A stretch of 64,000 nucleotides of DNA, taken from assembly GCA_001898225.1 (NCBI GenBank), contig MKTJ01000055.1:1-64000 (forward strand), in the 5' to 3' direction. Below are positions 34,882 to 55,970 of the stretch, piece after piece (position 1 is the stretch's first letter; each line of letters opens with the position of its first letter). The DNA is from Chloroflexi bacterium 54-19 (GTDB lineage: Bacteria; Chloroflexota; Chloroflexia; Chloroheliales; Chloroheliaceae). The position numbers and the translations under genes were made by a program. Below the pieces are notes generated by a model that was not told the DNA's origin, ran no database searches, and was given only the letters and a program-made list of their open reading frames with translations.

Positions 34882-35889
34882 CTAGCCCAGTTCGGGACAT
34901 AAAAGATGAATTATCCAGGTGCTGGCCGACCAGATAACCAGGCTGGATATAAGGGCCAAAAAGGTTTTTGACCAGAGCGGTGTCTTTCCGAAAAGAAGTT
35001 CCGCCGGTCCGGCGCTACTGAATTCTATCAACCGTGTCACTCGCTGTTCGGTGAGGGTTGGTGCATTTTCGGGGGTCAAACCGGGAGCCTGAAACCCTTT
35101 TCTAACTTTGGTCCTGGGGGAAAGCTGAGAGATTGCCAACAATTTCTCCCAAACCTTTAACAAAGCGTCCGCAAGGGCCAGGGCTCCGTTTATACCTCCA
35201 AACCTGGCAACCTTCTCGTCACAGGCAAGTTCCTGGTCTTTCTTTATAAGCTCAACCAGCGCGCGGCCACCGGGCAAATAGAAGAAAGCGGCTGCCGACC
35301 AGGTTGCAAACCAGTTGATCCAAAAATCACGCCGAATAAGATGCGCCTGCTCGTGCCATATCACCGCTTTTAGCTCGGTGTTGCTCAGGTCTCCTACCAG
35401 ACCGGTGGAGAGGATGACATATCCTTTACAGAAAGGAAGACCTGGCAGGTTATAAGCAAACGGCTGGCTACTATGCCACAACCTTACCTTCAGACCTCTT
35501 CGCCCCATGGTCTGGCTGGCAAGAGTTTCCATTCCGGGAGGTGCTGCCCAAGTGTTGCGGAAAGTACGAAGGTATAACCAGACTAAACGTACGAGGTTTG
35601 CCCCAAAGGTTACCCCAATCGGAACCGTAAGCAATGTGAAGCCAGCCACCCCCAGTAACCACTCTCGGTGTGAATTGTGGTCGGTATTGTGGTCGTACTC
35701 CGGAAAGAAAACAGACGGTGACATGGTTAAAGAAAATAAAAACATCACCAGCATAGGCATAGCGAGGGCCATTATTTGTAAACCCTGCCGGAACCACCAG
35801 CCTTTAATATTGGGAAGCAGTTTTATAAGAAGGATTTGCTCCAGGGCCACAGTTGCAAGACTGGTAATCAGAAACAGGACGTGTACCAT
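34882..35889 (-). CDS. M56-family (BlaR1-like) membrane metallopeptidase
   Basis: 335 residues with helices near 1-25, 35-60, 80-110 and at the C-terminus. The zinc motif is HEQAH (H179, E180, H183) in KAVIWHEQAHLIRRDFW, and E220 in ELACDEKVA is the third ligand. These are the M56 peptidase signatures of BlaR1/MecR1, which inactivates the BlaI repressor when induced. There is no C-terminal penicillin-binding sensor domain, so the signal is not a covalently bound beta-lactam; this resembles mycobacterial BlaR. The gene begins 11 nt after the blaI-like gene and is co-transcribed with it. Confidence 0.9.
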   Translation of the reverse strand: MVHVLFLITSLATVALEQILLIKLLPNIKGWWFRQGLQIMALAMPMLVMFLFSLTMSPSVFFPEYDHNTDHNSHREWLLGVAGFTLLTVPIGVTFGANLVRLVWLYLRTFRNTWAAPPGMETLASQTMGRRGLKVRLWHSSQPFAYNLPGLPFCKGYVILSTGLVGDLSNTELKAVIWHEQAHLIRRDFWINWFATWSAAAFFYLPGGRALVELIKKDQELACDEKVARFGGINGALALADALLKVWEKLLAISQLSPRTKVRKGFQAPGLTPENAPTLTEQRVTRLIEFSSAGPAELLFGKTPLWSKTFLALISSLVIWSASTWIIHLLCPELG

Positions 35890-35900
35890 TTCAATACCTC

Positions 35901-36623
35901 CTAATGGTCCCGGTTTCTGCTTGAAGTTGAAGACGCCAGGGGCGGGGAAGAAGGATGCCTGCCTCTCGTTTTTCTGGTCTGGCCCCCTTGTTCTGCCAGA
36001 TCGGAGGTCTCGGCGGTGGCGGTGGCCTCCTGGCGTAAATTCACCATTTTTGCTTTGAGCGCGGTTAGTCTTGAGGTTTGTTCCTCAGTGGCAACCTGGC
36101 TCAGGTAGTTTTCGGCTGAATGCGAAAAGCTCACCAGCAAGTTTTCAAGAATTTGAGTTACAAAGCTGGAGATAAATTCTTCCTTACTAAGGCTGGGTGT
36201 GTAGACATAGGCTCCGGGTATTTTCCTGGCTCGCAGAATATGTTTGCGGCCCAAACGCGCCATGGTACTCATTACCGTCGTGTACGCGATATAGCGGTGC
36301 AACCTGAAATCTTCGTAAACGTCACGCACGGTCAACCACTGCCGGTCGGGTGTTATACTTTCCCAGATATACTCCATTATATCAGCTTCCAGATCGCCCA
36401 GAACCTTGCGTACTCCATCCCGGTCAGTGCGGAAAACGGTTATATCCGGCTCTAAATCCTGCTCCTGATCCAGGTCGGTTTCAGACTCCAATACCTCCGT
36501 AAGAGGCTCACCGGCCGTTTCAAACCTTTTTTCTTTCAAGGGTAAAGCCTCGGATGCCTCCGTTTTTAAAGTGTGCTGCCTCTTCTGGTCATTTTCGAGG
36601 CCAACTTTTGATTTTCTTGGCAT
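35901..36623 (-). CDS. BlaI/MecI/CopY-family transcriptional repressor
   Basis: 240 residues, about twice the usual length. The BlaI winged HTH is at about 70-147: VRKVLGDLEADIMEYIWESI, WLTVRDVYEDF, recognition helix YIAYTTVMSTMARLGRKHIL, wing YVYTPSLSKEEF. A dimerisation helix region follows (FVTQILENLLVSFSHSAENY). The acidic N-terminal tail (1-70) and the polar C-terminal tail (about 200-240) are extra. BlaI proteins bind dyad operators as dimers and are relieved by an M56 peptidase. The operator 36799-36815 in its own promoter implies autoregulation; twelve more sites surround it. Metal-sensing (CopY-like) cysteine pairs are absent from the C-terminus. Confidence 0.9.
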   Translation of the reverse strand: MPRKSKVGLENDQKRQHTLKTEASEALPLKEKRFETAGEPLTEVLESETDLDQEQDLEPDITVFRTDRDGVRKVLGDLEADIMEYIWESITPDRQWLTVRDVYEDFRLHRYIAYTTVMSTMARLGRKHILRARKIPGAYVYTPSLSKEEFISSFVTQILENLLVSFSHSAENYLSQVATEEQTSRLTALKAKMVNLRQEATATAETSDLAEQGGQTRKTRGRHPSSPPLASSTSSRNRDH

Positions 36624-46369: not shown

Positions 46370-46579
46370 ACTTTTCTTTATAACCTTTTCTTTTTCCCCG
46401 CTATCAATGGCTGAAGGGTAAATGAACTAATGGGTAACTTTCGGTATTTCAGAAGCGGCCCCCAGGTACAGGTGAAAACTACCAGCAAAGCCCAGGCTTT
46501 GTCTGACACGTCCTCTGATTCGCCAGAAATAACAAATAAGTCCTCAAAACGCCTTGATTCGGATTTCGGATATTAACTG

Positions 46580-46617
46580 GTGGGTAATAATGTGGCAGTT
46601 ACCACATTATTACCCAC
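46580..46617 (-). repeat. Perfect 16-bp inverted repeat in the ferredoxin-YHS leader
   Basis: Left arm GTGGGTAATAATGTGG (46580-46595), 6-nt loop, right arm exact complement (46602-46617). It lies about 60 bp downstream of the -10, in the transcribed leader, and contains GGGTA/TACCC as the operators do. It could be an attenuator hairpin or a third protein site. Confidence 0.75.
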
Positions 46618-46640
46618 TAAATAAGATTCAAAATTAACCT

Positions 46641-46702
46641 GTATACCCCTACCCACTAAGGGTATACGCGAAAATTATAATACCCCTGATGGGTATAGTC
46701 AA
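46641..46702 (-). promoter_or_regulatory. Promoter with CsoR/CstR-like operators
   Basis: Minus strand: TTGACT (46697-46702), a 17-bp spacer that is exactly the dyad ATACCC-N5-GGGTAT (46680-46696), and TATAAT (46674-46679). A second dyad GTATACCC-N11-GGGTATAC (46641-46667) covers the region just after the start point. ATACCC/GGGTAT dyads are typical of CsoR-family (copper or persulfide) repressors. No such repressor gene is in the window. Confidence 0.75.
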
Positions 46703-46776
46703 TACTCAGAAGTATGATTTTGAAAGCTTTCTACTTTTCCGCTAAAGGGTACTTCCGCCAGGTTCTAAGAGGAATT

Positions 46777-46980
46777 TTATTCTGGCAACAGCTTATGGTG
46801 TTGGGAAGTAACCAGGCGGGCATAAACACTATTCTTTACCAGCAATTCCTGGTGGGTTCCGTTTTCGGCTACTCGCCCATTTTCTAAAACAATTATGCGG
46901 TCGGCGGTGCGGATCGTAGAAAGTCGGTGAGCATTCAGTAGGGTAGTGCGGCCTTTTACAAGGCGGGATAAAGCCAGGTG
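46777..46980 (-). pseudogene. C-terminal fragment of an ABC exporter ATPase
   Basis: Minus strand reads [20 protein letters not shown], then [20 protein letters not shown] and [19 protein letters not shown] to TAA at 46777-46779. This is the H-loop (AHRLST) and end of an MsbA/LmrA-type nucleotide-binding domain. Walker A, B and the signature are missing upstream, so only about 65 residues remain. Confidence 0.8.
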
Positions 46981-47008
46981 AAAGGCCTATTCGTTTTTGG
47001 TATCGAGA

Positions 47009-47888: not shown

Positions 47889-48320
47889 TTACCGGCTATT
47901 TTTAAAGCGTTCATCCGCTGGTTTCGCCACCGCCTCAGCCTCAAGTACTGCCGGAGTATCTAAGCGGTTGATTTCTGCGGTCAGATTGTCTTGTTTCAAT
48001 TTAAGGTCGGACAGCTGAATTTTTAACCAGGCTACTTCTTCCTCACGGGAATGAAACTCGGTCGGGGGCGGCAGAGCCGGTTGGTTTGAATGGTTGTGGT
48101 TGGCGTGCGACTGGTCGCCCTGCGAACTTCCACCATGATCATGCATTCCCGCATGCATCCCGCCGTGGTTGCCACCCATCATAAAGATCATCATGAGAGG
48201 GCAGGCCAGGAGGAATAGTAACGGTAGCCCGGTGGACCCAAGGTTAGGAACTAAAGCAAAGACGAGCACGAGCGCTACCGCCAGACCACCAATGTATAAC
48301 ATCAGATTCTCTTTTTTCAT
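47889..48320 (-). CDS. DUF2933-like small membrane protein, Met/His-rich
   Basis: 143 residues from ATG 48320, preceded by GGAGGTG; a frame to 48380 is rejected for lack of a site. Two hydrophobic segments: NLMLYIGGLAVALVLVFALV and PLLFLLACPLMMIFMMGG, the second with the ACPLMMxFMM signature of DUF2933. A His/Met-rich stretch follows (GMHAGMHDHGGSSQ) and a C-terminal helix with EEEVAWLKIQLSDLKLKQDN, likely coiled coil. The family lies near copper-resistance genes. It is 76 nt after the next listed gene on the same strand. Confidence 0.75.
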   Translation of the reverse strand: MKKENLMLYIGGLAVALVLVFALVPNLGSTGLPLLFLLACPLMMIFMMGGNHGGMHAGMHDHGGSSQGDQSHANHNHSNQPALPPPTEFHSREEEVAWLKIQLSDLKLKQDNLTAEINRLDTPAVLEAEAVAKPADERFKNSR

Positions 48321-48396
48321 TTTCGCCACCTCCAATGGCTCTGACAAAATAAAATTAGGACAAAAGGTAATAGTTTTCAACCACCGGCTTATTCAC

Positions 48397-48810
48397 TCAT
48401 CCCCGGGCGGTAGTTTTACCGGACTGCGATGTTACTGGCTCTGGCCCTGGCCCTGTTAGAAACTGAATTTCACCTTCCAGGGTTTTTTCGTCTGATTTGA
48501 GATTATTTAGCTGGGCTTTAAGGCTATCGAGTTCGTCCTCTTTGGTTAGGTGATATCCTGGCGGATAGATTGATTGCCAGGAATTAACCGGGGTGTGGTG
48601 CTGGTGCTGAGCCTGGTTAAACTTCGTATTCTCGGTATTAATCGCTAAAGCAAGCCCCCCCAGAGGTAATAAGAAGAAGATCAATAAGGGCAAGATGCTT
48701 GCAGTTAAACCGGGGAAAGCTCCCATAAAACCAATGGCTGTGAGCAGAACTACCAGGCCCAGTCCAAGGAAGATTCTTATAAAAAAGCTATAAACAACCT
48801 TGCCTTTCAT
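48397..48810 (-). CDS. Small two-helix membrane protein with coiled-coil tail
   Basis: 137 residues from ATG 48810, with a strong AAAGGAGG 8 nt before. Two helices (FLGLGLVVLLTAIGFMGAF and SILPLLIFFLLPLGGLALAI), a His/Gln stretch (QAQHQHHTPVNSW), then a predicted coiled coil (EDELDSLKAQLNNLKSDEKT). The plan is that of the DUF2933-like protein downstream, without the Cys-Pro-Leu motif. First gene of a two-gene operon, preceded by an 11-bp-phased repeat array (48918-48957). Confidence 0.65.
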   Translation of the reverse strand: MKGKVVYSFFIRIFLGLGLVVLLTAIGFMGAFPGLTASILPLLIFFLLPLGGLALAINTENTKFNQAQHQHHTPVNSWQSIYPPGYHLTKEDELDSLKAQLNNLKSDEKTLEGEIQFLTGPGPEPVTSQSGKTTARG

Positions 48811-53339: not shown

Positions 53340-55970
53340 CTAAGCCGAATGAACTGGCGGGGCCGGTGGAGTGAGAGCCTGGACACCGGGGCCTGGGCGG
53401 TTGTTGTCACCGGCCGCCGCGCTGGAGCGCCAGCCGGGCAGGCGGGTCCGCTTTAACATGAGAGCATTAGTCGCAACCAGGAGTGAACTGCCAGCCATTG
53501 AGAGGGCGGCGATTTCCGGTCGTAAGAGCAAACCGAAGAACGGGTAGAACAACCCGGCCGCGATCGGAAAGGCGACCGTGTTGTACCCGACCGCCCAGAA
53601 GAGGTTCTGTTTCATTTTGCGAACGGTCGCCCGGCTGAGGGCAATTGCCCCGATCACATCGAAGGGATCGCTCTTCATCAGCACCACATCGGCAGTTTCC
53701 ATAGCCACGTCGCTACCGGCGCCTATGGCAATTCCGACATCGGCCTGGGCCAGGGCCGGGGCATCGTTAATGCCGTCGCCTACCATCGCCACCAACTTCC
53801 CCTGCTGCTGAAGCTCTTTGACCTTGGCGGCCTTCTGGTTGGGAAGCACCTCGGCCAGGACTGTTTGAATGCCTAATTCGCTGGCGATGCGTTCAGCCGT
53901 AGCCCGGTTATCCCCGCTCAACATGACTACCTGGACTCCTAGCCTCTTAAGCTCGGCTACCGCCTGCCGAGAGGTAGGCCGAATAGCATCGGCGATGGCA
54001 ATCAACCTGGCCGCCTGACCATCTACAGCCGCGTACACCACCGTTCGCCCCGCGCCTTCCAGGCTGGCAGCCGTTTCAGCTAGGGGCAAGCCGGCCAGGG
54101 TAATTCCATTGTCATTCATAAGCTTGCGGTTGCCTGCCAGCATCGCCCGGCCCTCGACAGTTGCCTTCAACCCGTGGCCGGGAATAGCCTCAAAGTCGAG
54201 CGGCTCGGCCAGGCCCAGGTTGCGAGTTTTAGCATAGTCCACTATTGCCTGGGCCAGGGGGTGTTCGCTCGATTGCTCGGCCGAGGCCACCAGGCGGGCC
54301 AGCTGGTCGGCCGAAACCGCCGGGCCGGCCACCTCTAACGACACCACGCCAGGCTGCCCAACGGTCAGGGTGCCGGTTTTGTCAAAGATGATGGTCTGGA
54401 TTTTACTGGCTTGCTCCAGGGCGGTAGCGTTTTTATAAAGAACACCATTGAGTGCCCCCAGGCCAGTGCCAACCATTACGGCGGTGGGAGTGGCAAGGCC
54501 CAGCGCGTCCGGGCAGGCGATAATCACCACGGTAATTGCCAGGGTCAGGGCAAAGACTAAGCTGGCTCCGGCCACCAAATACCAGCCTAAAAAGGTCGCC
54601 AGGCCAAAACCGACCGCCGCCGCTACCAGCCACTGGGCGGCTTTATCGGCCAGCCGCTGGGCCGGGGCTTTCGAATTCTGGGCAGTCTGGACCAGCTTGA
54701 CGATTTGGGCCAGGGCCGTATCTTTACCAACCCTGGTAGCCCGGAAGCGGAAAGTGCCGGTCTTGTTGATAGTCGCACCGATAACCGTTACCCCCGGCGC
54801 TTTTTTGACCGGTAGGCTTTCACCGGTAATCATGCTTTCGTCCACGCTGGAACTTCCTTCGATTACCAGACCGTCCACCGGAATTTTGTCACCGGGCCGG
54901 ACCAGCACAATATCGTCCAGCTGCACCTGGGCAGTGGGCACTTCGACGGGTTGGCCATCCCGGATAACGGTTGCTTTAGGCGGGGCCAGGTCGAGCAGCG
55001 CCCGAATGGCTGTGGATGCTCCCGACCGGGCCTTCATTTCCATCCAGTGGCCGAACAGCACAAAGGAAAGTAGCACCACCGAAGCCTCGTAGAAAACTTC
55101 ACCCGCGAAGAAGAAAGTAGCGACGGCGCTGAAGAGGTAACCGGCCCCGACCGAAAGAGCGACCAGCACCGACATATCCAGGATTCGGTTCTTTAAAGCG
55201 CGGTAGGCTCCTACGAAAAACATCTGGCCGCCCCAGAGGACAGCCGGAGTAGAAAGCAGGAATAGCCACAGGTTGACCGGCAGGCCAAACGGCGTGGACA
55301 ATTTCAGGCCGAAAACCTCGGTTGCCAGCGGCGAATAGAGTGAAACGACAATCGCCAGGATAAAGGTGACAATAAACCGCTTGCGCATATCAAGGACCAT
55401 CTTTTCCATGCTCATGCCTGCACCGTGGCCCATTTCATGGGCTAGCTGGGCCTGTTCGCTGGAGTTAGAGTTGGAGTTGGAGTGTGAAGCCCTCTCGCCC
55501 ACGCCCATGCTATGCTCACTATGTTCCTCACTTGCTGGGGTAGGTCCAGCGTGTTCAGGGGAAGGTTTAGCCGGACTGGTTGGTGCGGCAGGTGGGGGCA
55601 CGGTTTCGGTTTCTACTCCCATATGATCCGCCCTGTGCTCATGGGGAGGGGGAGCCACCGCTTTGCCCGCCGGGGATGGCCCCTTCGAAGCAGAAGCCGA
55701 AGCAGGGGCAGGGGTTTTATTCAACCCGTCTGGTGAGCATAAATGGCTGGGCAAAACTTCGCCCTGGCAGTGGTAGCCACATTGCTCAATAAGCTGCCCT
55801 ATTTCGGGTGGGGAAATTACGGTTTCGTCATAGCCGACCGTAACCGTACTACTCATATAGTTAGCTTCAGCCAGTTGAATGCCAGGATGGCGGCGCAAAA
55901 AAGTTTCCAGGGCGGGGCCGGAACTGCCTTGCAGCATTCCCCCGGCCTCTAATACAATTTCTTTACTCAT
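53340..55970 (-). CDS. P1B-type heavy-metal ATPase with CPD motif and degenerate HMA domain
   Basis: 876 residues. The N-terminus is an HMA fold (about 1-70) in which the CxxC is lost (GGMLQGSSG). A His-rich linker follows ([32 protein letters not shown]). The core is complete: TGESLPVKK (actuator), C486-P487-D488 in [15 protein letters not shown] (membrane metal site), D530 in DKTGTLT (phosphorylation), [10 protein letters not shown] (P1B-specific HP), [10 protein letters not shown]. Cu(I) pumps usually have CPC and Cu(II)-type CopB pumps CPH; CPD suggests altered selectivity. It lies between cfa and the MFS gene. Confidence 0.9.

Follow-up and report, generated by a model that had tools for sequence, protein, structure and literature searches.

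The window analysed here, a 64-kb stretch of DNA that is part of contig C55, carries the gene of a ferredoxin-YHS fusion protein (Fd-YHS), and the region at 46641-46702 upstream of it raises the question of which signal controls this gene. An earlier note on the same DNA had proposed a ferredoxin induced by copper or persulfide through a CsoR- or CstR-like repressor. Copper attacks exposed Fe-S clusters, so a copper-induced iron-sulfur protein would be unexpected. Our analysis nevertheless predicts that the region is very probably a promoter through which CsoR represses the Fd-YHS gene and copper induces it. This prediction is supported by the identity of the operator, the geometry of the promoter, the recurrence of the operator before csoR and copZ genes, the copper-type ligands of the CsoR-family proteins and the operon linkage of Fd-YHS homologues.

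Promoter, predicted operators and leader

Read directly on the minus strand, 46702-46674 is TTGACT-ATACCCATCAGGGGTAT-TATAAT, followed by TTTCGC and then by GTATACCCTTAGTGGGTAGGGGTATAC at 46667-46641. A consensus promoter scan gave this promoter a score of 11/12 with a 17-bp spacer, and the dyad that the earlier note had placed in the spacer does fill it, true to the base. The dyad, ATACCC-N5-GGGTAT, corresponds to positions 3-8 and 14-19 of the type-2 CsoR consensus of streptomycetes (ATATACCCCTNAGGGGTATAT), the most conserved positions around N5 (PMC3902906). The second dyad reported after the -10 is also present, with an outer form GTATACCC-N11-GGGTATAC (11-bp gap). This predicted operator fits the CsoR register better, as ATACCCTTAGTGGGTAG at 46649-46665 with one mismatch, 31 bp or about three helical turns from operator 1. 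Dual CsoR sites are frequent in Firmicutes of the gut (PMC4938975). The features are listed in Table 1.

Table 1. Mapped features of the window, exact dyads in the genome, and neighbourhoods of the Fd-YHS homologues
Feature	Position	Strand	Remarks
-35 hexamer, TTGACT	46697-46702	minus	direct reading and promoter scan
CsoR operator 1 (predicted), ATACCCATCAGGGGTAT, 17 bp	46680-46696	minus	direct reading; type-2 CsoR consensus, PMC3902906
-10 hexamer, TATAAT	46674-46679	minus	direct reading and promoter scan
CsoR operator 2 (predicted), GTATACCCTTAGTGGGTAGGGGTATAC	46641-46667	minus	overlaps expected start site
Fd-YHS leader, ~298 nt	46370-46667	minus	presumed transcription start, placed from the -10
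Leader hairpin, perfect, 17 bp, GTGGGTAATAATGTGG/CCACATTATTACCCAC	46579-46617	minus	arms reach 46563-46634
Fd-YHS gene, 253 aa	45608-46369	minus	Fd domain ~15-145; C-terminal YHS domain 210-252
Exact dyad, window site	C55		upstream of Fd-YHS gene
Exact dyad	C14:47387		upstream of CsoR-family gene starting 47502
Exact dyad	C62:4375		upstream of CsoR-family gene starting 4491
Exact dyad	C62:27224		upstream of CsoR-family gene starting 27339
Exact dyad	C58:506600		upstream of copZ-type HMA gene
Exact dyad	C32:12269		between response regulator/kinase pair and MFS gene
Homologue	L140		csoR-copA-copZ-FdYHS; G-tract dyad before csoR
Homologue	L143		csoR-copA-copZ-FdYHS; G-tract dyad before csoR
Homologue	L142		csoR-copA-YHS-FdYHS
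Homologue	L144		copA-copZ-YHS-FdYHS; no csoR identified on 11.6-kb contig
Homologue	L016		copZ-FdYHS divergent from csoR-copA; G-tract dyad before copZ
Homologue	L015		few kb from 3' part of copA, DUF326 Cys-rich protein and DUF305 protein
Homologue	L141 (7642-11229)		after CbiM-type cobalt/nickel transporter cluster; the only homologue lacking copper neighbours

Several other elements were seen around the locus. Immediately upstream of the promoter, a minus-strand frame at ~46716-46990 encodes the decayed C-terminus of an ABC-transporter ATPase, and two small membrane proteins, one of them Met/His-rich (MMGGNHGGMHAGMHDHGG), lie at 47889-48810, upstream of the Fd-YHS gene. A P1B-type ATPase with a His-rich N-terminus and a CPD motif, a second metal pump of the window, was assigned by eye at 53340-55970.

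The window contains a single perfect N5 dyad. As the number of dyads there with at most two mismatches is near chance (~2 expected), the window alone is indecisive and the genome counts decide. Exact-pattern searches of the 9.25-Mb genome (93 contigs) found six copies of ATACCC-N5-GGGTAT where a first-order Markov model predicts 0.50, with no exact match to the reversed control pattern; for the dyad with an attached -10, three were found against 1.1e-4 expected. Four of the six copies precede csoR (n = 3) or copZ-type (n = 1) genes, so the search for the same dyad before copper genes that had been proposed gave a positive answer, extended by csoR and copZ sites in three related genomes.

The register is conserved as well. 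The csoR1 and csoR2 promoters, TTGACA-ATACCCCTACAGGGTAT-TACAAT and TTGACA-ATACCCTATAGGGGTAT-TATAAT, hold the dyad in the spacer as at the window site, and both genes are the first of csoR-YHS-copA-copZ clusters. Upstream of csoR3 the dyad is followed by TATAAT, without a clear -35, and on C58 the operator sits just past the -10 of copZ. The third csoR copy (L055:4375-5200) is surrounded by transposase-like ORFs and has a frameshifted YHS gene and no adjoining copA. A double layout like that of the window was found at C32:12239-12285, where a weaker spacer dyad, ATACCCCCATCCCGTAT, is followed 30 bp further by the exact one. This site (L057:12239-12285) has an MFS transporter on one side and, on the other, a paired response regulator and sensor kinase, the latter with a Met-rich loop; the site is a possible link between cytosolic and envelope copper responses.

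Among related genomes, the sole csoR of G001, from the same genus, is preceded by the double-dyad layout TTGACA-ATACCCCCGGTGGGTAT-TATAAT-ATACCCCCGGTGGGTAT, and that of G002 by ATACCCCTGCAGGGTAT-TATAAT. In G003, a copZ has an exact dyad, again as an operator just past the -10. G003 contains two more exact dyads, both within open reading frames, and G005 has one that does not adjoin its csoR; chance copies therefore occur, at about the expected rate. A comparison of 12 sites showed hardly any variation in the outer arms of six bases and free variation at the five central bases. The lineage appears to be the family Candidatus Chloroheliaceae, as the YHS match of relative G004 begins at the coordinate, and on the strand, of a plasmid hit in Candidatus Chlorohelix allophototropha.

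What could be said for a chance palindrome upstream of Fd-YHS is the number of imperfect dyads expected in the window. However, the copy here is exact and in the exact spacer register, most of its genomic counterparts stand before csoR or copZ, and a related genome has the matching layout, which leaves chance a negligible probability. The dyads could also act not as DNA operators but as RNA hairpins, in a terminator or attenuator. Indeed, a loose terminator scan picked up both, and the fold of the leader is stronger than those of its shuffled versions (RNA fold, z = -2.6). The spacer dyad, however, lies upstream of the expected start and would not be transcribed from its own promoter; moreover, the dyads before the csoR genes keep the identical register, and no Rfam family reaches threshold in the 64-kb window. 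We regard the RNA reading as extremely unlikely, and the dyads as predicted CsoR operators.

The leader itself, on which the earlier note is silent, is long, the Fd-YHS gene starting ~300 nt downstream of the promoter. Its hairpin is unique in the genome, which ruled out a repeat family, and has TACCCACTAA in common with operator 2. A riboswitch, suspected because Fd-YHS shares its ferredoxin (Fd) domain with CobN cobaltochelatases, was rejected: the leader gave no Rfam match at threshold, and the hairpin gave chance-level matches only.

The Fd-YHS protein and its homologues

The C-terminal domain of Fd-YHS scores 47.5 bits against the Pfam YHS model (cut-off 30.3). Its ligand positions D211, C214, C237 and C241 are invariant in all eight proteins compared, namely the window protein and seven further full-length homologues from other Chloroflexota; no full-length relative was found on plasmids. 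When a YHS domain was tested with an adenylyl cyclase, the response was copper-specific, and an Asp and three Cys were proposed as the copper ligands (PMC4626032).

The N-terminal domain shows weak similarity to [2Fe-2S] ferredoxin models. Six cysteines are kept in 8/8 proteins, with C38/C45-47/C82/C86 invariant and 82/86 forming a C-x3-C. The full-length AlphaFold model (pLDDT 57) was set aside as too poor, and the Fd domain was modelled on its own (pLDDT 87); the top matches of this model in a fold search were the thioredoxin-like [2Fe-2S] ferredoxins 5abr and 1f37, with a probability of 1.0 but otherwise moderate scores (TM ~0.5, E ~2e-3). We infer that the domain is a thioredoxin-like ferredoxin, presumably of the [2Fe-2S] type. 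Fd-YHS gave no match to an HMA domain and so does not have the HMA with CxxC of a CopZ-type chaperone. The same Fd domain forms the N-terminus of CobN in other Chloroflexota and of annotated CobN on Deinococcus plasmids (33-46% identity to CobN domains).

Five of the seven homologues are encoded directly with csoR, copA or copZ genes (Table 1). The operator is not the only tie between Fd-YHS and copper: homologues stand in copper operons, and the Asp and three Cys of the YHS domain are conserved. A search of the four nearest relatives (G001-G004) did not find the Fd-YHS gene. Literature searches of limited extent found no paper combining CsoR, a YHS domain and copper, and Fd-YHS is apparently an undescribed, recurrent partner of copper-export genes in Chloroflexota.

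Copper, persulfide or another metal as the signal

The genome encodes four CsoR-family proteins, three of them near-identical, so the gene on whose presence the earlier proposal depended exists. Two Cys and one His are the Cu(I) ligands in CsoR (PMC7558416), and these Cys-His-Cys positions are kept in all four (e.g., KYCVDI...EDHMRHCV); the closest solved relative of CsoR1 is the CsoR 4m1p (E 6e-28), with Cys-His-Cys aligned.

For a persulfide signal, the ferredoxin would have to be under a CstR-type paralogue that responds to sulfane sulfur and has two Cys but not the copper-binding His. CstR is in the same family as CsoR, and in Thermus sulfur oxidation is under a CsoR-family protein (PMC10318464). 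Persulfide control is nonetheless very unlikely here because no CstR-type protein was found among the four. In addition, the dyads are located at csoR, copA and copZ genes, no sulfur-oxidation gene cluster was seen beside them, and the operator of the Thermus sulfur regulator, TACNNTACNNNNGTANNGTA, is without G-tracts (PMC10318464). Control by another metal-responsive repressor, either a nickel/cobalt sensor or one of the BlaI/CopY type, with a role for Fd-YHS in the handling of cobalt or nickel, would fit the kinship with CobN, the homologue L141 that comes after CbiM, and the BlaI-type repressor gene adjoining csoR1. Against this, the dyad is of the CsoR type and tracks csoR, no CobN match was found in the genome, and most homologues are tied to the copper genes. 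We consider this alternative improbable. The earlier proposal thus stands for copper, given the ligands, the csoR-YHS-copA-copZ operons and the homologues inside csoR-copA-copZ operons, and falls for persulfide.

Two further repressor genes were noted. The one next to csoR1 encodes a Penicillinase_R repressor (L054:4521-5126), is divergent from csoR1 and has a TACTA-type dyad near its promoter. A BlaI/CopY-like repressor with an M56-type peptidase was assigned by eye at 34882-36623 of the window.

Under the preferred reading, CsoR control by copper, apo-CsoR tetramers would bind ATACCC-N5-GGGTAT between the -35 and -10, as well as operator 2 over the start site, and would exclude RNA polymerase. 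Cu(I) bound at Cys-His-Cys would release CsoR, and Fd-YHS would then be made along with the other products of the copper regulon (the csoR-YHS-copA-copZ operons and the lone copZ). The protein would join cytosolic copper handling, its copper-binding YHS domain (Asp and three Cys) tethered to a putative [2Fe-2S] electron carrier and keeping Cu(I) for CopZ/CopA. This role, in which Fd-YHS would bind copper and act as a redox partner that keeps Cu(I) at the disposal of CopZ/CopA, is a tentative assignment; the protein might instead buffer copper or be a protective Fe-S protein. The cobalt-linked homologue L141 and the kinship with CobN would also fit a broader role in metal handling.

These results identify a CsoR regulon for a barely studied Chloroflexota lineage, in which a promoter design is conserved: the operator fills the spacer exactly and is often doubled. 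For the ferredoxin-YHS fusion, itself uncharacterised, two lines of evidence that do not depend on each other point to copper stress: the operator at this locus and the place in operons of other genomes.

Comparison with known systems

The operator itself is of an ordinary, known kind, and the novelty is the regulated Fd-YHS gene. The type-2 CsoR operators of Streptomyces lividans (csoR, copZA1, copZA2) have the same ATACCC-N5-GGGTAT core, TAC/GTA ends and G-tracts, and likewise stand before csoR and copZA. In contrast to these, the operator here occupies the whole -35/-10 spacer, its register is conserved, a second site commonly lies ~22-33 bp off, and one of its targets is a ferredoxin-YHS gene.

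For the protein, the FeSI/Shethna-type ferredoxin 5abr, a top fold match of the Fd domain, has the thioredoxin-like [2Fe-2S] fold predicted for that domain. The CobN-fused domains of Chloroflexota and Deinococcus are the same domain, with the invariant C38/C45-47/C82/C86, whereas Fd-YHS has no chelatase and is fused to YHS. The small YHS proteins of csoR-YHS-copA-copZ operons, also present in this genome, have a YHS domain with Asp and Cys ligands but no ferredoxin domain. Archaeoglobus fulgidus CopZ, a [2Fe-2S] and Zn copper chaperone (Sazinsky 2007, cited in PMC7558416), resembles the predicted make-up of Fd-YHS in joining iron-sulfur and copper-binding domains in a copper-export pathway. 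Fd-YHS has a predicted thioredoxin-like ferredoxin and a YHS domain where the archaeal protein has Zn/Fe-S and HMA domains; the likeness is one of analogy, not homology. By this analogy, Fd-YHS might be the counterpart of the Archaeoglobus Fe-S chaperone: a fourth component of Chloroflexota csoR-copA-copZ operons, and a [2Fe-2S] redox protein, induced by copper and bearing a copper site of its own, that possibly reduces or holds Cu(I) and passes it to CopZ/CopA.
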